Source: a virus
DNA length: 61,843 nt
Direction: 5' to 3' (one strand)
IMG/VR virus record: IMGVR_UViG_3300027965_000203
Coordinates: 1 to 61,843 of that record
This document shows, in pieces, positions 1 through 54,867 of the stretch. The position numbers and the translations under genes were made by a program. Every line of letters begins with the position of its first letter. The first letter of the stretch is position 1. The notes under the pieces are model-generated. The model did not search any database and was not told the origin of the DNA. It worked only from the letters and a program-made list of their open reading frames with translations.

Positions 1-359
1 GGCGCGCCGTCCTCTCCCATCGCCACGGCGACGAGCGCGCCGATCATTTGCCTCGCATACGGTGCCCGCACGTCGATCGCGGGACCAAGGATGTGCGCGA
101 TCCGCGCGTTGACGGCATCGCGCCGCAACTCAATGCTTGGATCGTGCGGCGCATGCAGCATCGCGGCAAAAGCCCACTTCTGCCGATAGTCGCAATGAGG
201 GCAAATCCAGCCGTCGACCGTCGCGACCAGGTCGCGCGAGAATTGACCGTGATCATTCGCGCAGGTGAACGGGTGCACGAAGCCGCGCCGTTGCCAGTGG
301 TTGAGCGCGTCCACCTGGGCGTGGGTGAACGGCGCGGTGATCTTGTCGGGCTCGGTCAT
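1..359 (-). CDS. Small zinc-knuckle phage protein, 3' part outside window
   Basis: The reading frame starts at an ATG at 359 and runs leftward off the window edge after 119 codons, so the C-terminus is not seen. Residues C33, H37, C53 and C56 form a CxxxH...CxxC pattern that could bind one zinc ion. The protein resembles short hypothetical proteins of alphaproteobacterial prophages, which is family memory and not a search result. It follows the C5 methyltransferase by seven bases in the leftward early operon, so it is probably co-transcribed with it. No function is assigned. Confidence 0.6.
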   Translation of the reverse strand, partial: MTEPDKITAPFTHAQVDALNHWQRRGFVHPFTCANDHGQFSRDLVATVDGWICPHCDYRQKWAFAAMLHAPHDPSIELRRDAVNARIAHILGPAIDVRAPYARQMIGALVAVAMGEDGA

Positions 360-366
360 GACCGTC

Positions 367-2664
367 TCACTGCGCCGCCATCAGCGCGATCGCGACCGGC
401 TGCACCCAGATCGGCTCGCTCGACAGCATGAAGGTCTGCCCGCTCCAGGCGCCGAGCAGGCAGCGCCCGAGCACGCCGCCCATCGCCTTGGAGGCCTCGG
501 GCGGGACCATGTTTCCGATGCGCTCGCGCCACGCGGAATCCGACAGGCCGTCAAGGATCAGGAATTCTTCCGGATCGATCAGGCTCTGGATGGCGGCGAG
601 CTCGAGCGTGGTGAAGGGCCGGTGCCATGTGCCATCGAGCGCGAGGATCAGGCACACGAGGCGATCGTTCGGCCCGGGCAGCGCGACGTCACTTTCTCCG
701 TTCAAATTCGTGAGCGGCATTCTCGGATCGGCGACCGAATTGAAGCCGTTGTCGTGCTGTCCCGCGGCGGTCACCGCGCGCATCGCGGCATCATAGGGCA
801 CCACGCCGTAGTGGCCGGCGGTGAGGTACTTGTCGCGGCCGTCACGGGCGAAGTCAGGCCTGGGATCAGCGACGGAGAGCGCGCCACCCTGGACCTGGTT
901 GGCGCCGGTGACCGTGCGGGCGTGCTCGTCCCAATCGACCACCACCAGCTTGTTGCGGTGGGAGTTGGGCCCGTAGCCCGTGCGCGGATCTGCGACCGAC
1001 ATCGCGCTCGAGCCGGGGCTCCGTTGGCCGGTAACCGCGCCGGCGTGCTTCTCCCACGGCACGATGCGCATGCCGCCGAACTCGTTGTCGGTGCGCGGGT
1101 CCGCCACGGCGAATGCACCGTTGGTCGGATAGCTCTCGCCGGCGACCACGCCGGTCGCCTCGGTCCATTCGTGCACGCCGAGCTGCGTCGAGCGCGCGCG
1201 GCCGTCGACGCGCGGATCGGCGACCACGAATGCGCCATTACCGGTGGTGCTCGCCGCGATCACGGCGCCGGCCGGCTCATCGAAGGCCGTGACGCGGTAC
1301 TTCCCGTTGACGTGCCGACCCTCGCCAGCGCGCGGGTCGGCGACCGCAAGGCCTCCGGCCGGGCCACCCGGCCCCGCCACCGCCGGCGAGGCTGCGTCCC
1401 ACGGGACGATCCGGAACACGTTGTTGAAGCGTGGCTTGCCTTCGATGCGCGGATCGGCAACCGAGTGCGGTCCCCCGCCGACGTACATCTTGCCGGTCAC
1501 GACGCCGGCGGGCTCGGCCCAGGGCCGCACGCCGAGCTGCACCGATTTCGGATGACCCTCGATGCGCGGGTCGGACACCGCGAAGGCGTTGTTGTGCGGC
1601 CAGGAGCGGCCCGCAACCGTACAGGACGGCTCGTGCCATTGGCGCACGCCCAAGGATCCGGCGTGCGGCTGATTGTCGATGCGCGGATCGGCGACCGCGT
1701 GCGCGCCGGTGAGGGGAGCACTGCGGCCGGTCACCGTCGGCGCCGGCTGATCCCAGCGGCGCACGCCCAGGACGCCGTGATTGAGATAGTGGTCGGGCGC
1801 GATGCCGAAGTCCTTGAGCACGCCGTTCTCGACCGAGAGGTCATTGAGCGAGCGCCAATCGGAGCCCGCCTTGACGAAGGCGAGGCGCACCCACGTCTTC
1901 CATTGCAGCGCCGGCATGCGGTGCATCGGGCCGCCGATGCCCGACAGCGGGAGCGGCAGCTTGTCGAGCACCTCGCCGACGCCGCGCAGACGACGCTTGA
2001 CCGGCTCATAGAGAAAGTTCGGCACCTTCGCGGTATGGCGGGCCACCATGAGGAACCGTTTGCGGCTCTGCGCAAGATTGCCGAGCTCGCCGCAGTCGTG
2101 CGTCGTCTCGGCGATCGCGTAGCAGTGCGCGCGCAGAAGCGCGCTGTACTGGTCGAGCAGCCAACGGCCCCGCGTCGCGATCCGCGGCACGTTCTCGAAG
2201 ATGATCAGCTCAACCGGATCGTCCTTGAACGCCTCCAGGACGAGCATCATCCCGCGCAGCAGAAGCCCGTTGAGCGCCTGGTATTTGGCCGTGCCGGACG
2301 TCTTCTCCGACAGGAGGCCGCTGAAGCCCTTGCACGGATAGGACGCGAAGACGATGTGCGGGCGCTCGCCGCCGCATGCGCGGTGAATGTCAGCCGGCGT
2401 CGCCTCGCGCCAGCCTTCAGGCGGTTCGCGGCCATGGAAGGCCGCGTACTGTTCGCGGCTGAAAAGATCGATGCAGGACGCCGGCACGCCGACCAGCCGC
2501 GTGAAGTCCCGGCATGCGGCCGGGTCGACATCGATGCCGCCTAGGCAGCGAAACTTTGCGACCAGGTTGCCGACGCGCGCGCTCGCGTTGTTGAAGCCGA
2601 TGGCGCCGCCGCCGATGCCGCAGGCCATATGGAAGTGAAGAATTTCTTTGGTGATTGTCGTCAA
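367..2664 (-). CDS. C5-cytosine DNA methyltransferase with nine internal repeats
   Basis: Predicted to methylate cytosine C5 in DNA using S-adenosylmethionine. Motif I is GIGGGAIGF (residues 16-24), the catalytic Cys111 lies in PCKGFSG, ENV is at 157-159, QSRKR at 199-203, and the C-terminal motifs are RPFTTLELAAIQSL (682-695) and GNMVPPEASKAMG (717-729). At 765 residues it is nearly twice the length of ordinary Dcm-type enzymes. The excess is residues 298-650, where motif IX and target recognition sequences should lie. That stretch holds nine degenerate copies of about 40 residues, each ending in (S/A)VADPR. The protein should protect phage DNA from host nucleases or act in regulation; the role of the repeats is unknown. 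No partner restriction gene is visible. Confidence 0.92.
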   Translation of the reverse strand: MTTITKEILHFHMACGIGGGAIGFNNASARVGNLVAKFRCLGGIDVDPAACRDFTRLVGVPASCIDLFSREQYAAFHGREPPEGWREATPADIHRACGGERPHIVFASYPCKGFSGLLSEKTSGTAKYQALNGLLLRGMMLVLEAFKDDPVELIIFENVPRIATRGRWLLDQYSALLRAHCYAIAETTHDCGELGNLAQSRKRFLMVARHTAKVPNFLYEPVKRRLRGVGEVLDKLPLPLSGIGGPMHRMPALQWKTWVRLAFVKAGSDWRSLNDLSVENGVLKDFGIAPDHYLNHGVLGVRRWDQPAPTVTGRSAPLTGAHAVADPRIDNQPHAGSLGVRQWHEPSCTVAGRSWPHNNAFAVSDPRIEGHPKSVQLGVRPWAEPAGVVTGKMYVGGGPHSVADPRIEGKPRFNNVFRIVPWDAASPAVAGPGGPAGGLAVADPRAGEGRHVNGKYRVTAFDEPAGAVIAASTTGNGAFVVADPRVDGRARSTQLGVHEWTEATGVVAGESYPTNGAFAVADPRTDNEFGGMRIVPWEKHAGAVTGQRSPGSSAMSVADPRTGYGPNSHRNKLVVVDWDEHARTVTGANQVQGGALSVADPRPDFARDGRDKYLTAGHYGVVPYDAAMRAVTAAGQHDNGFNSVADPRMPLTNLNGESDVALPGPNDRLVCLILALDGTWHRPFTTLELAAIQSLIDPEEFLILDGLSDSAWRERIGNMVPPEASKAMGGVLGRCLLGAWSGQTFMLSSEPIWVQPVAIALMAAQ
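718..1773 (-). repeat. Nine tandem ~40-residue repeats inside the C5 methyltransferase
   Basis: Each unit reads roughly LGVxxWxEPAxxVTGxxxxxxGAxxVADPR followed by a variable linker of 6-15 residues. Units begin near residues 298, 337, 377, 417, 456, 495, 532, 573 and 619. DPR is present in all nine. The copies are clearly diverged, so this is an old array and not a recent slippage product. The core resembles the PAxTVT segment that precedes motif IX in many C5 methyltransferases, suggesting that segment was multiplied. Confidence 0.85.
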
Positions 2665-2677
2665 GCCATCCCCTCCC

Positions 2678-3160
2678 CTAAGCCGCGGCCGCGGCCGTCG
2701 GCATGTCCGCCGGCAGCATCTGCCAAGCGAGCTTCCCGCTCTTCGTTTCGCCGACCAGGCGGAAGCCCGCTTTCCAGAAGCAAAAGCCCTTCATCCGCTC
2801 GCCGCGGACCAGCACGCCATCAACCATCTTGGGATCGACGAAGGTGACGCAGCCGAGCGCCGGCACCTCGTACTCGGTGCGCATATGCGCCATCGCCTGC
2901 CGGATCATGTCGGAGGCGAGCGGCCCCGCTTCCTCATTGCGGAAGATCGACACCACCCAGGCGCCGGCCCAGGCGTGCTTGACGTACTCGGCCTTCGGGA
3001 ATGAGAGCCCGAAGACCGCTTTGCTGTTGCTTGCGACCAGGACGCGGCACGAACCGGGCGGCATGAACTGCGGCGAGCCGGGCTTTTGCCGGCTGTAGTG
3101 CCGATCGGCGAGGGCGACCGCTCGCGGATCGGCGCGGTTCGATTGGCGCCAGATTGACAT
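2678..3160 (-). CDS. Mom-like / GNAT-fold phage protein
   Basis: A 160-residue protein. The start at 3160 was chosen because its ATG overlaps by one base the stop of the upstream ribbon-helix-helix gene. It opens with WRQSNRADP and ALADRHYSRQ and ends with GFCFWKAGFRLVGET, a typical last-strand pattern of GNAT acetyltransferases. Similar proteins are frequent in actinobacterial and alphaproteobacterial phages. Its place next to a DNA methyltransferase suggests a DNA or nucleotide modifying role comparable to Mu Mom, which is inference. The protein is real with good confidence; the enzymatic assignment is tentative. Confidence 0.7.
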   Translation of the reverse strand: MSIWRQSNRADPRAVALADRHYSRQKPGSPQFMPPGSCRVLVASNSKAVFGLSFPKAEYVKHAWAGAWVVSIFRNEEAGPLASDMIRQAMAHMRTEYEVPALGCVTFVDPKMVDGVLVRGERMKGFCFWKAGFRLVGETKSGKLAWQMLPADMPTAAAAA

Positions 3161-3432
3161 CAGGCGGCTTCCTGGTGGTTCGAGGCGGGCGCCGGTGCCG
3201 GCTGTAGCAGCTCGGCCCGCTCGCGATAGTGCGCGAATACGAACACCCGGATCGCCGACGACAGATTGCCGTGCCGGCGGTGCGCATCGATCGCGCCGAC
3301 GGTCTCCGAAAGGCTCGTATTCGCCTCCGCGGCGATCTCCTTGAGCCCCTTCCAGAAGCAATCCTCGAGGCTGACCGAGGTCTTTTGTCCGGCGATGACG
3401 ATCGAACGCTTCACGACTGGCGATTTCTTCAT
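3160..3432 (-). CDS. Ribbon-helix-helix domain protein
   Basis: A 90-residue basic protein. A beta-strand-like stretch (KRSIVIAGQKTSVSLE) is followed by two helices (FWKGLKEIAAEANTSLSETVGAIDAHR), the layout of the RHH_4-type ribbon-helix-helix fold used by small DNA-binding repressors. It probably dimerises and binds DNA. Its stop overlaps the next start by one base and its own start lies in the tail of the HNH-like gene, so it sits in a tightly coupled operon. Target sites are not identifiable from sequence. Confidence 0.75.
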   Translation of the reverse strand: MKKSPVVKRSIVIAGQKTSVSLEDCFWKGLKEIAAEANTSLSETVGAIDAHRRHGNLSSAIRVFVFAHYRERAELLQPAPAPASNHQEAA

Positions 3433-3839
3433 GGCTTCTTCCTCCGCTCGAAACCTCGTGATTGCAGCCTGCGGCCGCGCGGCCAGTTACCGGTGGGCTC
3501 GCGGTGCTGGCCGCACGGCCGCGCCAGAACCTTGCGCTGGAATTCTTCCTGCTCCGGCGTGAGGCGTCGCACCTTGGCGACGATCGAGGTGTCGCGGCGC
3601 GACTTCTGCCGGTGCGGGTCCTTGAGCAGCGGGGTCAGGTTCCACCATTTGTCGGCGCCATCGAGCGCGAAAAGGATGTTGTGATCCTGGTGAAACATCG
3701 AGATCACGGACTTCGCCGGCACCTTGGCGGCGCGCAGCTCGTCCCGGAGCTCCTGCGGCAACAGAAGCGACAATGCAGCCGCGAGCTTCTCGCGGAGCGA
3801 TATGTACTTGCGGGCGCGCTTGCGGCGGGGCGTGTCCAT
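3429..3839 (-). CDS. HNH-nuclease-like phage protein
   Basis: A 136-residue basic protein. The central stretch contains DHNILFALDGADKWWNL, then H and K in DPHRQKSRRDTS. This matches the spacing of a D-H...N...H...K pattern in small phage proteins of the HNH/endonuclease VII type. Some family members have a more canonical second histidine, so activity here is uncertain. The gene lies one base from the helicase stop codon and overlaps the ribbon-helix-helix start by four bases. A hypothetical protein with no catalysis is the alternative. Confidence 0.55.
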   Translation of the reverse strand: MDTPRRKRARKYISLREKLAAALSLLLPQELRDELRAAKVPAKSVISMFHQDHNILFALDGADKWWNLTPLLKDPHRQKSRRDTSIVAKVRRLTPEQEEFQRKVLARPCGQHREPTGNWPRGRRLQSRGFERRKKP

Positions 3840-4988
3840 CTACATCACCACCGTCAGGCGCTCGGCCGCGCGCGTGATGCCCGTGTAAAGCCAGCGCCGC
3901 GCATCGTCGCGAAACACCGCGCTCTCATCGAACAGCACGACGTTGTTCCACTGCGAGCCCTGCGACTTGTGCACGGTCAGCGCATAGCCGTAGGTCATGC
4001 GCTGGGTCTTCTTGAGGTCCTGCCAGGGAAGCTCGTTCTCCCGCCCGACGAAGAAGTGCGGGTGCACCTTCACCTCGATGCGCCGATCGCTCTCGGAATC
4101 GTCCGGCTTGACCACCATGCGCACCATGGCGGCATTGGCCTTGCGCACCTTCTCGACCCGGAAGAGGCCACCGTTGAAGATGCCCTTGGTGTGATCGTTG
4201 CGCAGGCAGACCAGGCGCTCGCCCGCCTTGGGATCGCCGCGGAAGCCGAGCAGGTCGCGGATGCGGTTATTGTAGGAGACGCGGGTGTCGTTCTTGCCGA
4301 CCAGGACCTGCTCGGCCTCGAGGATGAGGGCGCGCACGATCGCCTGGTCGGCGCCGCGGCGCAGGATGCGGCAGGCGCCGTGGTCGCCGGGCTCGAGCTG
4401 GCGGCCCTCGCGCACATCCATCGACAGGCGGATGATGGGGTTGCCTTCCGCCTGGCGGTGCACCTCGGTCAGCATCGCGTCGGGCTCGGCATTGGTGAAA
4501 TAACCCGCGTCCTGCACCGGCGGCAGCTGCGCCGGGTCGCCCAGGACGAGCACCTTGACGCCGAACGAGAGCAGGTCGTTCGCGAGCTCGGCGCCGACCA
4601 TCGAGCATTCGTCGATGATGCAGAGCGCGGCATCGGTGAGGTCGCTGTCTTCCTTGAGGACGAACTTGGGCGCCTCGCCGGTGGGGCCGTCCTCGTCCAC
4701 CCGGTAGATCAGGCTGTGGATGGTGGAGGCGCCGATGCAGCCCTTGGAGCGCATCACAAGCGCGGCCTTGCCGGTGAAGGCGGCGAAGATGACGGGCTTG
4801 GTGACGTGCTCGCCCTTGCGCTCCTTGACGATCGCGCGCACGCGTTTGGCGATCTCGATCGCCAGCGTGGTCTTGCCGGTGCCGGCGTAGCCGAACAGGC
4901 GGAAGGTCTGCGGGGCGTTCTCGGCCGCGAACCATTCCTCGACACGGGCGAGGGCGGCGAGCTGCTGCGGCGACCAGGCGTCGGTCAT
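3840..4988 (-). CDS. RecD/Dda-like superfamily 1B DNA helicase
   Basis: An ATP-driven 5'-to-3' DNA helicase by family. Walker A is GYAGTGKT (33-40), Walker B is LCIIDECSMV, followed by LGDPAQLPPV and EVHRQAEGNPIIRLS. The C-terminus carries the SF1B signature TVHKSQGSQW and TGITRAAERLTVV. At 382 residues it is close to phage Dda size and lacks the long N-terminal region of RecD2. It sits beside a Sak4-like ATPase, so it likely serves phage recombination or replication. The start at 4988 gives a normal N-terminus directly before the motifs. Confidence 0.93.
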   Translation of the reverse strand: MTDAWSPQQLAALARVEEWFAAENAPQTFRLFGYAGTGKTTLAIEIAKRVRAIVKERKGEHVTKPVIFAAFTGKAALVMRSKGCIGASTIHSLIYRVDEDGPTGEAPKFVLKEDSDLTDAALCIIDECSMVGAELANDLLSFGVKVLVLGDPAQLPPVQDAGYFTNAEPDAMLTEVHRQAEGNPIIRLSMDVREGRQLEPGDHGACRILRRGADQAIVRALILEAEQVLVGKNDTRVSYNNRIRDLLGFRGDPKAGERLVCLRNDHTKGIFNGGLFRVEKVRKANAAMVRMVVKPDDSESDRRIEVKVHPHFFVGRENELPWQDLKKTQRMTYGYALTVHKSQGSQWNNVVLFDESAVFRDDARRWLYTGITRAAERLTVVM

Positions 4989-5012
4989 GCGGCCGAACTC
5001 CGGCCGCGGCGA

Positions 5013-5486
5013 TCAATAGAGGAACGGCTTGCCCGGCGGATCGAGGCGCGGGCGCCGACCCGCCCACTCGGCGATGAGCGCTTTGCGCTGGCGCGAGCGA
5101 ACGTGCGGGAGGTAGTCGCGGAAAAGCAATTCGACGGCGACGTCGACATACCGCGAGAACTCGGCGTCATCCATGAGCGGGAACGCGGTCGACTTGAGGC
5201 GCACCGCAATCGCGGCAACTTCGCCGGAGGGGAAGGCCATGATCTGCAGCACCAGCCCCGCCTTCCACTTGAGCTCGGCGTGGAGAAGGTCCGGGTGCAC
5301 GTCGATTGCCTCGGCGACCTTGCCGAGCAGTCCTCGGTACCAGCGGTTGAGCTTCGACGTGCGCGCGAAGATCGTCTGCACCTGCATGGGCTCGAAGCAC
5401 CGGATGCTGCGCAGACGCTCGCGGTCGATATCGGTCGCCGGGAGAAGGGCGAGGCGCCCTTTCTCCCGGACCATGAGCATGTCCAT
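5013..5486 (-). CDS. DUF1367-like phage recombination/replication accessory protein
   Basis: A 157-residue protein. The N-terminal layout (GRLALLPATDIDRERLRSI, then a short linker, LNRWYRGLLGKVAEA and LLHAELKWKAG) resembles the DUF1367 family found near lambdoid recombination genes, where the equivalent reads PATDED and HRKFFALL. The resemblance is from memory and moderate. It lies between the helicase and the Sak4-like ATPase in the leftward operon. Its function is unknown; DNA handling is inferred from neighbours. Confidence 0.65.
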   Translation of the reverse strand: MDMLMVREKGRLALLPATDIDRERLRSIRCFEPMQVQTIFARTSKLNRWYRGLLGKVAEAIDVHPDLLHAELKWKAGLVLQIMAFPSGEVAAIAVRLKSTAFPLMDDAEFSRYVDVAVELLFRDYLPHVRSRQRKALIAEWAGRRPRLDPPGKPFLY

Positions 5487-5523
5487 GCCATGGATATAGT
5501 GCTCGGCATGGTTAAGGTCCTCT

Positions 5524-6957
5524 TCACTCGGCGGCTTCGGCGAGCGCCGGGTTCTCGGCCTTGATGATCTCGCCCTGACGCTTGAGCAGGGCAGTGTTCA
5601 CGCGGTTGCGGTGCTCGAAGGGCAGGTTGCCGAGCTTGGCGATCTCGATCGTGTAATGGGCGCAGTCGCCCATGCTCATGAGCTTGGGGATGCCGTCGAG
5701 CAGCTTCTTCTCCAGCAGGGCCGGGTCGCGGATGCAGTCGAGCGGGATGTCGGCCTGGGCTTCCGCCATCGCGGCGCTCGCCGGCGCCGAAGATGCGTCC
5801 GCGGCCGTCGGCGGCGCCGGGTGCTCCGGGATTTCGTCGTCGATCGGCTGCCGCATCTTCTCGACCTCGGCGGCATAGCGCGACGGCTTGCCGGCGAGCT
5901 TGCGGTGCAGGCTGTCGTAGCCGGCCCGCAGGTCCGGCAGCGGCATGACCTTCTCGATCTCGGTCCAGGTCGCGTCGAAGTGCTCCAGGACCGCCTTGAG
6001 CTTGGCCTTCTTGTCTTCGGCGCTCTGCGTCGGGAAATGCAGCGCCAGCAGGTTCTGGATTTCCTCGATGCAGATCTCGCGCTGCACCGGCTGCCAGTCC
6101 TTGCGCTCGGTCTTGAGGATGTGGCGGCTATCGCCGCTCGCATCGACGCCGACATGGTCGCTGCCGATCGCGAGGTTCTCGATGTGCGGCAGGAAGGCGC
6201 CGAAGGTCTGCGCCACCAGCTGCTTGAGGCTCAACCGGTTGCCGTTATCGTCCTCGGCCGAGAACCTGAATTCCCGCCCGTCGATGATCGTCGAGCGATC
6301 CTTCTGCACGATGGCCTTGTGCCCGACCTTGCCGGTGCGCAGGTTCTCGTCCTGCTCCATCAGCACCAGGAGCGAGGGCTCGAAGCCCGTCTCGCCCTCG
6401 GTCTTCATCTTGGTGCCGGTCTTCTCCAGCTGCCGCTTGCCGTTGTCGTCGCGGTACTCGGAGAACTCGTGACCCGCGCGGCCGCACATGATGATGTGCA
6501 GCTTCGAGTTGATGAAGAGGTCGGTGAACTGCGCCCAGCCGTATTGGCCCTTGAGATAGCTCCAATCGTCCATCTGCAGGAAGGTGCGCTCCTTGCGCTT
6601 CATGTACGCGTCGCACAGCTCGCGCCACGGGTGCGTGATGGAGTCGATGATCAGGATCGAGGCGTGCTGCTCGGCCTCCTTCACGGCGGAGAGCAGATCG
6701 GCGAAGTTGCGCTTCTTGGCGGTGAAAAACGGGACGTTCGCGGCCTTGAAATGCGGGATCAGCCAGTCGGAGCCAGTCTCGGTGTCGAAGAATGCGACCG
6801 GCTTGCCCGCATAGGGCACGCCCTTGTCCTTGAGATAGTTGAACAGGCCGATCGCGACCATGCCGGCGGTGAACGTCTTGCCGCCGCCCTGGAAGCCGAG
6901 CAGGCCCATCTTGAGGTGTGCCGAGGTCGATGCCGCCGGCTGGAAAATGCCGCTCAT
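5524..6957 (-). CDS. Sak4-like RecA-family ATPase
   Basis: A 477-residue single-domain RecA-type NTPase with Walker A GFQGGGKT (21-28) and Walker B SILIIDSI. DTETG after the first strand and a C-terminal region rich in charged helices are consistent with phage Sak4-type single-strand annealing or recombination ATPases. I chose the ATG at 6957 because it places Walker A near the N-terminus; a GTG nine bases upstream is an alternative. It likely binds single-stranded DNA and promotes strand annealing during phage recombination. Confidence 0.85.
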   Translation of the reverse strand: MSGIFQPAASTSAHLKMGLLGFQGGGKTFTAGMVAIGLFNYLKDKGVPYAGKPVAFFDTETGSDWLIPHFKAANVPFFTAKKRNFADLLSAVKEAEQHASILIIDSITHPWRELCDAYMKRKERTFLQMDDWSYLKGQYGWAQFTDLFINSKLHIIMCGRAGHEFSEYRDDNGKRQLEKTGTKMKTEGETGFEPSLLVLMEQDENLRTGKVGHKAIVQKDRSTIIDGREFRFSAEDDNGNRLSLKQLVAQTFGAFLPHIENLAIGSDHVGVDASGDSRHILKTERKDWQPVQREICIEEIQNLLALHFPTQSAEDKKAKLKAVLEHFDATWTEIEKVMPLPDLRAGYDSLHRKLAGKPSRYAAEVEKMRQPIDDEIPEHPAPPTAADASSAPASAAMAEAQADIPLDCIRDPALLEKKLLDGIPKLMSMGDCAHYTIEIAKLGNLPFEHRNRVNTALLKRQGEIIKAENPALAEAAE

Positions 6958-52269: not shown

Positions 52270-54867
52270 CTATTCGGCCGCCTGCGCGGTCGACGACTCC
52301 GCTTCCAAGAGATCAAACAGGGTGACGGCCGACGCCTGGCGTTCGGCATCCTGCAGGTGGCGCACCGCGTCGCGGTGGTAGGCGGGCGATAGCTCGATCG
52401 AGAAGCCCCGCCGCTTCTGCAGCACCGCGCAATAGGCGACGGTGCCGAGCCCGCCGAACATGTCGAGCACGAGCTCGCCCGGCATCGAGCATTGCCGAAT
52501 GACGCGGTCGACGATGTCGAGCGGAAGCGGACAAAGATGCCGCTCCATTCCGCGCGCGACCTGCAGCGTGTTGAGCGACCGCATGCGCACGACGTCGGTG
52601 AGCACGTCCGGGTGCCACGAATGCACCGGGATGATCGCGTAATCGACCGGGAGCTTGCCGGCGGCCTCGAGCGCCTCAGCGCAGGCGACGTGGTGCTCGA
52701 AGTCGTAGACCTCGCCGAGCGAATGCTCCTTGTAGCGGCGATAGATGCCGCGCTGCATCGCGGCGAGCTCGGAGGGCAGGAGCAGGCGGTTGCCGCTCGA
52801 GCGCGTGAAGCCCGCCGCATCGAGCTGCCAGCGCGAGCGCGAATAGCCGTCCTCGCGGCCCCAGGCCTGCGCGGTCTCATCGAACTCGCGCTTGCCCTTC
52901 ACCACCGGCACGTCCGCATAGCCGCGGCTCCGGTCCGTCTGCGGCTTGCGGAAGAGATGCAGGTATTCCGGCAGGCCGAACCCCATGCGGCTGCCGTCCT
53001 TGCATTGCTCGGTGTAGCCCAGCCGATAGGTCTGGTTGTTCTCGCGCACGACGTCGGTGACGATCGTCTTCGTGCCGAGATAGGCAAAGCCATGCTCGCG
53101 GAAATGCAGCATGGTCTTCGCCCCGAACGGCTCGACGGTCTGGAAGCCGAGCCCCGAGCGCGAGCCCTCGACGATGCGGTCCTTGACGTGGATGGCGCAG
53201 ACGCGGCCGGGCTTGAGCACGCGCAGGAGCTGCGGCGTCAGGAAGTCCATCTGCCGGAAGAAGTGATCGTCATCGTCCGTGTGGCCGAAGTCGCGATAGC
53301 TCGGCGTGTACTCGTACTGCGTCGAGAACGGCAGCGACGACACGATCAGGTCGACGCTGTCCTGCGCCATGCGGCCGACTTCGTCGATGCAATCGTTATT
53401 GACCGCGGTGAAGCGCTCGCCCTTCACCTCCGCGCGCGCGACCTCCATCGTGCGGGTGAGCGCCGAGCCGATCGCGAGCTGGGTCAGCCCATATTCCCGG
53501 ATCAGGCCCGACATGCGCGCGGATTGTTCCTCGTAGCGCCTCCAGTTCGCCTGCAGCGTCCGCACGATCTCGCGCTCGGCCTCGGTATGGATGATATCGA
53601 TCCGCACCGCGCGCGGCCGATCGGCCGGGAAGCCCTCGAAGGCCTGACCGTAGCGATGCGTGCGGTGGACCGATTGGATGAAGTCCTTGAACTTCCAGCC
53701 GACGCCCAGATAGATCGACCACCAGCAGTGATGCTGGAGGTTCGGCCCCGACCCGATCATCACGGGTTTTCCGGCCAGCTCGCGCGTCTCGCCGGCCTGG
53801 AATTTCATCATCGCAGCTTCGCGATCGTCGACCTCCTGGCTGCCGTAGACGGTCACCACCTCCGGCGCCGCCTTCTCGATCGCCCGGCGCTCGTCCTCGA
53901 GGTCGTGCCAGATCAGGCGGTGGGCCTCGGGCAACTCCGCCCGCAGCTCCATCATCTTGGCGATCCGCGCCGGCAGGCTCTTCCGCTTCTCGGCTGCCGC
54001 GCCCTGGACGCCGGCGGCGCTGTCCTTGATCAGCCGCTTCTGCCCGTTCGGGTCCTCGCCGGCGTCGGAATGATCCGTCGGCACCTCGTGCCAGCGCACG
54101 TCGAGCGGCGGCAGCACGTAGCCGTCATCGGAGAAGGACGGGTCGACGTCGGACGGCTTGTTGATGAACAGCGCCCAGGAGGCGACCCACAGCCAGAACT
54201 CCGCCTCTTTGTGCGGATGGATCGTGAGCTTGTCCGCCTTCTCCGAGTTGCGCCTGAAGAAGCGCGTGCGCGCCTGGCCGATGTCCATGATGTCGAGATA
54301 GCCCGCGAACGCGAGCAGCTCTGCGTATTCCCGGGGATCTGGGGTCGCGGTCGCCACATGCCGATAGCGGACCTGTTTGGCGCGTTCGGTGAACGTCCAG
54401 AAGGTCTTGGTCGACATGTTGCGGAGAATGTCGCCCTCATCGAACGTGGTTGAGCCGAAGCGCCGCGGGTCGATATTGCCCTCGCGCACACGCTCGACGT
54501 TGGTGAGGTTGATCGCGCGGCGATCGATATCGGCATCGCGGGTGACCCAGTTGAGCTTGATCGCGTGCTCGCCGGTGAAGCGCTCGGCGTCGTTGTAAAA
54601 CGACAGACGCGCGCCGAGCGGCATCACGACCAGGTGCGGCTCGCCGGTGTGGCGCATGGTGAGGCGGCCGATTTCGAGGTGCCACGTCGTCTTTTGCGTG
54701 CCGAAGCGGGAGGCGAGCAGGCGGCGGCCGCCGGCAAGAGCCCATTGGGTCGCCACCTGGATATGCGGCTTGAGCGCCGGATTGAGCTCGGCCGGGTCGA
54801 TCTCGAAGCCGGCCGACTCGGCGAGCTTGATCTTGGCTTGGAGGAAGGTGCGGTAGGCGTCCGTCAT
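52270..54867 (-). CDS. Helicase-DNA methyltransferase fusion
   Basis: An 865-residue fusion. Residues 1-440 form a superfamily 2 helicase-like module: motif I-like FGTQKTT (55-61), motif II DEGD (143-146), VATATPDP, and motif VI QSVHRTHRYGQ (398-408). Residues about 470-865 form a beta-class amino-methyltransferase (N6-A or N4-C): motif IV VSSLPFST (509-516), motif I LDMFGGLGT (801-809), in the IV-before-I order. Motif IV has SSLPF where active enzymes show (S/D)PP(Y/F). Related fusions are frequent in prophages. It probably modifies phage DNA while tracking on it. Confidence 0.88.
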   Translation of the reverse strand: MTDAYRTFLQAKIKLAESAGFEIDPAELNPALKPHIQVATQWALAGGRRLLASRFGTQKTTWHLEIGRLTMRHTGEPHLVVMPLGARLSFYNDAERFTGEHAIKLNWVTRDADIDRRAINLTNVERVREGNIDPRRFGSTTFDEGDILRNMSTKTFWTFTERAKQVRYRHVATATPDPREYAELLAFAGYLDIMDIGQARTRFFRRNSEKADKLTIHPHKEAEFWLWVASWALFINKPSDVDPSFSDDGYVLPPLDVRWHEVPTDHSDAGEDPNGQKRLIKDSAAGVQGAAAEKRKSLPARIAKMMELRAELPEAHRLIWHDLEDERRAIEKAAPEVVTVYGSQEVDDREAAMMKFQAGETRELAGKPVMIGSGPNLQHHCWWSIYLGVGWKFKDFIQSVHRTHRYGQAFEGFPADRPRAVRIDIIHTEAEREIVRTLQANWRRYEEQSARMSGLIREYGLTQLAIGSALTRTMEVARAEVKGERFTAVNNDCIDEVGRMAQDSVDLIVSSLPFSTQYEYTPSYRDFGHTDDDDHFFRQMDFLTPQLLRVLKPGRVCAIHVKDRIVEGSRSGLGFQTVEPFGAKTMLHFREHGFAYLGTKTIVTDVVRENNQTYRLGYTEQCKDGSRMGFGLPEYLHLFRKPQTDRSRGYADVPVVKGKREFDETAQAWGREDGYSRSRWQLDAAGFTRSSGNRLLLPSELAAMQRGIYRRYKEHSLGEVYDFEHHVACAEALEAAGKLPVDYAIIPVHSWHPDVLTDVVRMRSLNTLQVARGMERHLCPLPLDIVDRVIRQCSMPGELVLDMFGGLGTVAYCAVLQKRRGFSIELSPAYHRDAVRHLQDAERQASAVTLFDLLEAESSTAQAAE

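Follow-up and report, generated by a model that had tools for sequence, protein, structure and literature searches.

The methyltransferase gene and its catalytic core

The window, by which we mean the whole 61,843-nucleotide stretch of viral DNA analysed (IMG/VR record IMGVR_UViG_3300027965_000203), carries a complete C5-cytosine methyltransferase gene with a TTG start. The gene, the motifs of its product and the repeat units that interrupt them are listed with their coordinates in Table 1. Positions 1-5664 of the window are 100% identical to part of another viral contig (IMGVR_UViG_3300005531_000213), which extends beyond the window's left end.

Table 1. Features of the methyltransferase gene in the window, with residue numbers of the product where given.
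Feature	Residues	Positions	Strand	Remarks
C5-cytosine methyltransferase gene, complete		367-2664	-	765 residues, TTG start
Catalytic part (motifs I-VIII and GSDWR region)		1795-2664	-	from motif coordinates, AlphaFold, Foldseek and DNMT1 profile
Motif I	14-24			
Motif IV with catalytic Cys	109-118	2311-2340	-	YPCKGFSGLL (PCKGFS)
Motif VI	156-161	2182-2199	-	FENVPR
Motif VIII	199-208	2041-2070	-	QSRKRFLMVA (QSRKR)
Array of nine recognition-module-like units	291-648	721-1794	-	A-A-J-E-B-A-T-I-C
Unit 1, type A		1681-1794	-	...WDQPAPTVTGRSAPLTGAHAVADPR; type A is first in most arrays
Unit 2, type A		1564-1680	-	
Unit 3, type J		1447-1563	-	
Unit 4, type E		1330-1446	-	PRFNN...GGPAGG
Unit 5, type B		1210-1329	-	GKYRVT...STTGNGAF
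Unit 6, type A		1093-1209	-	
Unit 7, type T		982-1092	-	rare type
Unit 8, type I		859-981	-	
Unit 9, type C		721-858	-	YLTAGHYGV...HDNG; type C is last in 153 of 158 arrays
Motif IX	681-695	580-624	-	HRPFTTLELAAIQ / HRPFTTLELAAIQSL; aligned with DNMT1 motif IX
Motif X	714-725	490-525	-	GNMVP, ERIGNMVPPEAS

Motifs I, IV (PC), VI (ENV), VIII (QxRxR), IX and X are all found, and they follow one another in the order of C5 methyltransferases, as the first-pass annotation had it when it called the enzyme complete. The N-terminal part of the product matches the Pfam family PF00145 (DNA_methylase, E=1.9e-7), a family matched by all 13 members scanned, and there are strong matches to PHROG 32684 (E=4e-104) and PHROG 116. 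Compared with PDB profiles, the core gives a match to DNMT1, in which the GSDWR segment of the window enzyme is present too. In the AlphaFold model (70-row alignment) the pLDDT exceeds 85 for most residues up to about 250, and a Foldseek search with this predicted core returns DNMT1/MET1, M.HaeIII (PDB code: 1dct, E=6.5e-10) and M.HhaI. The core, as modeled, has the C5 methyltransferase fold.

Could this nevertheless be a catalytically inactive relative, with an array that binds DNA or protein, for example as a decoy or a repressor? The divergence of the protein from the family models, with 31 bits to PF00145 and a score below the cut-off for TIGR00675 (NCBIfam), would suit such a role. The predicted core fold is that of a C5 methyltransferase, however, and in the 158 family members described below the proline and cysteine of motif IV, the ENV of motif VI and the final arginine of motif VIII are invariant, with the GN-P residues of motif X nearly so. 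We regard the inactive relative as very improbable, and these invariant residues make a non-enzymatic binding array, which had been one of three options at first reading, unlikely as well.

A 759-residue open frame lies antisense to the methyltransferase gene (265-2544, plus strand). It was set aside because the homology is entirely on the opposite strand, and the 69% G+C composition probably explains it as a shadow frame. Directly upstream of the methyltransferase gene, at 2678-3361 (minus strand), is a gene that matches PHROG 24928 (function unknown) and whose product contains the motif ADRHYSRxKPGSPQFMPPG and looks Mom-like or GNAT-like, judged by eye only; the product has no match among PDB sequences, and the gene is absent from the other methyltransferase loci examined. 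At 52270-54867 (minus strand) an 865-residue protein is encoded that matches the phage DNA helicase family PHROG 16 (E=1e-85) and, over residues 478-855, the DNA methyltransferase family PHROG 67. This helicase-methyltransferase arrangement is reminiscent of P1 DarB-type anti-restriction proteins, and by that resemblance the gene is possibly a second anti-restriction gene.

The nine-unit array

The array is located between motifs VIII and IX and adds about 358 residues, close to the approximately 350 that had been estimated initially. Unit 1 starts at about residue 291, the lengths of units 2 to 9 are 39, 39, 39, 40, 39, 37, 41 and 46 residues, and every unit has (A/S)DPR at its C-terminal end. 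The first-pass annotation had placed the repeats at 718-1773; an array is indeed found there, with its bounds revised to those of Table 1. That annotation's nine diverged units are borne out by the profile searches. A hidden Markov model (HMM) made from the nine units scores 50-71 bits for each of them, and in a leave-one-out procedure the model of the other eight recovers every unit with 35.9-53.1 bits (E <= 4e-13), compared with a top score of 7.4 bits when the region is shuffled 1000 times. AlphaFold gives a pLDDT below 50 nearly throughout the array, both for the window protein (70 rows) and for a five-unit relative (61 rows); the core is predicted well in both. Since the last unit, which adjoins motif IX, is also predicted with low confidence, the array prediction is taken as uninformative and not as a refutation of the modules.

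Distribution of the family

The window enzyme is a member of a large family whose genes are carried by temperate phages and prophages, most of them proteobacterial. Relatives with arrays occur in hundreds of other viruses, and the array, first described as an insertion into an otherwise ordinary enzyme, turns out to be the standard architecture of this family. A tblastn search of phage records finds 36 relatives, which belong to phages of Pseudomonas, Sinorhizobium, Marinobacter and Achromobacter. Scans of bacterial genomes give 330 stretches that encode such a protein, and those of viral contigs give at least 576. From the best 80 of the bacterial and the best 80 of the viral stretches, 158 full-length members were drawn, with 4-10 units apiece, 1019 units altogether and a unit period of 37-46 residues. 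This sample is biased to long arrays, and a second search was therefore made with the core alone. It adds 38 new members, one with two units, ten with four, 22 with five and the rest with six, seven or eight, so that relatives carry between 2 and 10 units, the variation in copy number for which a check had been proposed. The lone two-unit member consists, by sequence, of an A-like and a C-like unit. Outside the Proteobacteria, a nine-unit member is found in a Desulforudis metagenome-assembled genome. One relative (L007:2917-5290) has its gene broken into two overlapping frames within the array, which may reflect a sequencing error, decay or a programmed frameshift.

Relatives in named phages are those of Pseudomonas phages LKA5, H66, vB_Pae_CF63a and vB_PaeM-D14A, Marinobacter PS3, Achromobacter CF418P1, Sinorhizobium PBC5 and part of phiCTX. 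These have the core and the unit family in common with the window enzyme and carry 4-8 units, but their arrays differ from that of the window, and their annotations say no more than C5 methylase, hypothetical or unknown. LKA5, H66 and D14A have similar cores with arrays that differ from one another. The open-licence literature searched yielded no account of the array; it may have been described elsewhere.

Module types and cassette turnover

Clustering of the 1019 units yields about 19 types with at least five copies. The 158 members have 111 distinct arrays, in which type A comes first in 134 and type C last in 153 of the 158. The types keep a strongly conserved order, with A at the start, D ahead of E, E ahead of B and C at the end, and the presence of the types varies freely despite this order. 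On a tree of the cores of the 158 members, with the array left out, the number of units changes at least 63 times, and the minimum number of changes in presence is 32 for type D, 36 for E, 26 for F and 20 for G.

Close pairs of genes let single events be seen. In L030 and L047, the core DNA is 97.8% identical, the shared units are 93-98% identical, and a single unit of 126 bp, of type N, is present in one and absent from the other. Between L137 and L141, one middle cassette is swapped for another type, with 83-94% identity in the other units. L106 and L038 also differ by one swapped cassette; four of their five other units are 90-98% identical and one, a B unit, is 60% identical. The swapped cassettes in these last two pairs have 55-56% identity, against 90-94% for the cores. 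Because the close pairs differ by single-unit events, the single unit is the evolutionary module of the array. Free swapping by itself does not account for the conserved order of the types, which may come from in-register recombination or from a structural constraint on position. When distant cores were searched for units shared in recent time, only one pair turned up, which implies that the types are old and that exchange is best visible among close relatives.

Likeness of the units to target-recognition segments

What, then, is a unit? The C-terminal part of C5 methyltransferase recognition domains (target-recognition domains, TRDs) follows the published consensus (YFW)X(RK)X5P(STCA)PT(ILV)(TASV)X5-16H(PFYWL), which sits 10-50 residues ahead of motif IX (PMC2413257). 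The central P-x-P-T-x-x is exact in 8 of the 1019 units and present with the usual substitutions in 966 of them, and by sequence the family unit has the form of this consensus, loosely. Searched against PDB sequences, the unit profile finds no match up to E=10, and for this reason a profile-profile comparison with controls was used. For this comparison 19 canonical C5 methyltransferases were represented by the segment before motif IX, with which the unit profile aligns at E=1e-4; three other regions, taken as controls, give E=0.045-0.89. Single-sequence matches in canonical enzymes at E<0.01 are found only next to motif IX. The alignment is in line with the earlier suggestion that a native segment before motif IX has been multiplied. 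One of the canonical segments aligned with the unit profile reads ITLSAYGGG, which we take to be the sequence of M.HhaI recognition loop II. This loop (residues 252-258) recognizes the 3' part of the target (PMC4090504).

From the structures of M.HhaI and M.HaeIII, DNA-contact trimers have been placed at NNN-x10-TL-x3-CCC, and they are conserved among enzymes with equal specificity (PMC2413257). With the TL at columns 14-15 of the unit, the contact trimers fall on columns 1-3 and 19-21. The trimer columns score 1.49 bits (between-type minus within-type entropy) versus 0.44 bits elsewhere (permutation p=0.0024). Since sequence was what defined the types, some columns must be expected to score positively, and the information lies in which columns do so. 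The W-D-x-P stretch between the trimers varies within types, VADPR is constant in all of them, and in several types the threonine of the TL gives way to A or V. The columns by which the types are told apart coincide with the published DNA-contact positions.

The units are under purifying selection as strong as that on the core, with a pooled dN/dS of 0.150 for the units versus 0.139 for the core. This closeness led us to reject a neutral linker. It also bears on whether only the bookends, the first A and the last C adjoining motif IX, recognize DNA, leaving the middle as a scaffold, a protein-binding array or ballast. Most members do have A first and C last, the only two-unit member has just an A-like and a C-like unit, and AlphaFold gives the array no confident fold. 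The middle types, however, have a dN/dS that matches the core (0.10-0.13 for most of them) and retain type-specific residues at the DNA-contact positions, and ballast would not recur as the same approximately 19 types across divergent phages. We consider recognition by the bookends alone unlikely.

Module types were also compared with the representation of restriction sites at 74 loci; none of the 296 tests is significant after correction (best p=0.0005, Bonferroni 0.15). In that comparison, GGCC is slightly more frequent at viral loci with type F units than at loci without them; its raw p of 0.0005 does not hold up across the 296 tests, and it is only a weak lead for target mapping.

Comparison with known methyltransferases

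M.HhaI, M.HaeIII and DNMT1 resemble the window enzyme in motifs I-X and in fold, but they have one TL/recognition-loop-II segment just before motif IX where the window enzyme has nine. Bacillus temperate phages evade many restriction-modification systems by means of several TRDs in one polypeptide (PMC12707154). Their enzymes (M.SPbetaI/mtbP, M.phi3TI, M.SPRI, M.H2I and M.rho11SI) come from temperate phages and have an anti-restriction role, and like the window family they combine one core with tandem TRDs between motifs VIII and IX. The Bacillus TRDs are about 40-46 residues long, each built around a TL motif; SPbeta mtbP (443 residues) and phi3T_150 (437 residues) contain two TL segments, 46 residues apart, and phi3T_149 (326 residues) contains one. 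The window family shares units of about 40 residues, a T-V or variant at a fixed place and trimers that differ between types. It differs in having 2-10 mutually related modules of about 19 recurring types that are exchanged between phages, and in its hosts, which are mainly Proteobacteria. The unit HMM has no positive-scoring match in mtbP, phi3TI or phi3TII, and to judge from sequence the window family is a lineage separate from the SPR/SPbeta/phi3T TRDs. A self-BLAST search for repeats in mtbP found none, but it is uninformative because it also missed the window repeats used as the positive control.

The array might instead work as a composite reader, in which the units jointly read one long or bipartite site in a TALE-like manner and the core methylates only there. 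The conserved order of types, the fixed first and last units and the near-constant tandem period speak for such a reader. With arrays of 2 to 10 units and single-unit changes between near-identical genes, though, the whole target would be altered each time. The recognition loops of C5 methyltransferases normally divide one short site between them, reading its 3' and 5' parts (PMC4090504), and the known tandem-TRD enzymes are multispecific (PMC12707154). We find the composite reader distinctly unlikely.

Proposed function

The window enzyme is probably a multispecific anti-restriction C5 methyltransferase with exchangeable target-recognition modules. Of the three options in the first-pass annotation, exchangeable modules are the one that we favor, with cassette exchange visible between near-identical genes. 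By analogy, the best reading is that the enzyme works like the Bacillus phage SPR/SPbeta/phi3T enzymes. One catalytic core would be followed by a tandem array of nine recognition modules, each copying the native TRD segment with its first strand, the T-V or 'TL' turn, the recognition loop and a second strand that closes with VADPR. In the major groove, each module would probably place contact residues of its own, and the modules would act one at a time, so that one core could methylate several short sequences. Recombination would add, drop and replace cassettes between the fairly constant first (A) and last (C) units, and the likely purpose is to shield the phage DNA from many host restriction enzymes. 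What we infer for this enzyme is that it methylates DNA, that each module reads one site and that it acts against restriction.

For the family, we lean somewhat toward the view that the phages share a pool of at least about 20 interchangeable 40-residue cassettes between fixed ends, which would give one core combinatorial recognition. The array would then be a list of up to 10 protected motifs, updated in the restriction arms race. The principle of several TRDs in one enzyme is already known. What differs here is the scale, the kinship among the modules, their common pool, the fixed end units and the separate lineage.

In how many modules it has, how these are related and how they turn over, the family goes further than the multispecific enzymes so far described from Bacillus phages. 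Its more than 1000 natural recognition modules share a constant framework, and some natural arrays differ by a single cassette, which could let the link from TRD sequence to DNA target in C5 methyltransferases be solved directly. Should every module prove to have a target of its own, the array would predict the restriction systems that a temperate phage can survive, and one could reengineer the enzymes into programmable m5C writers.
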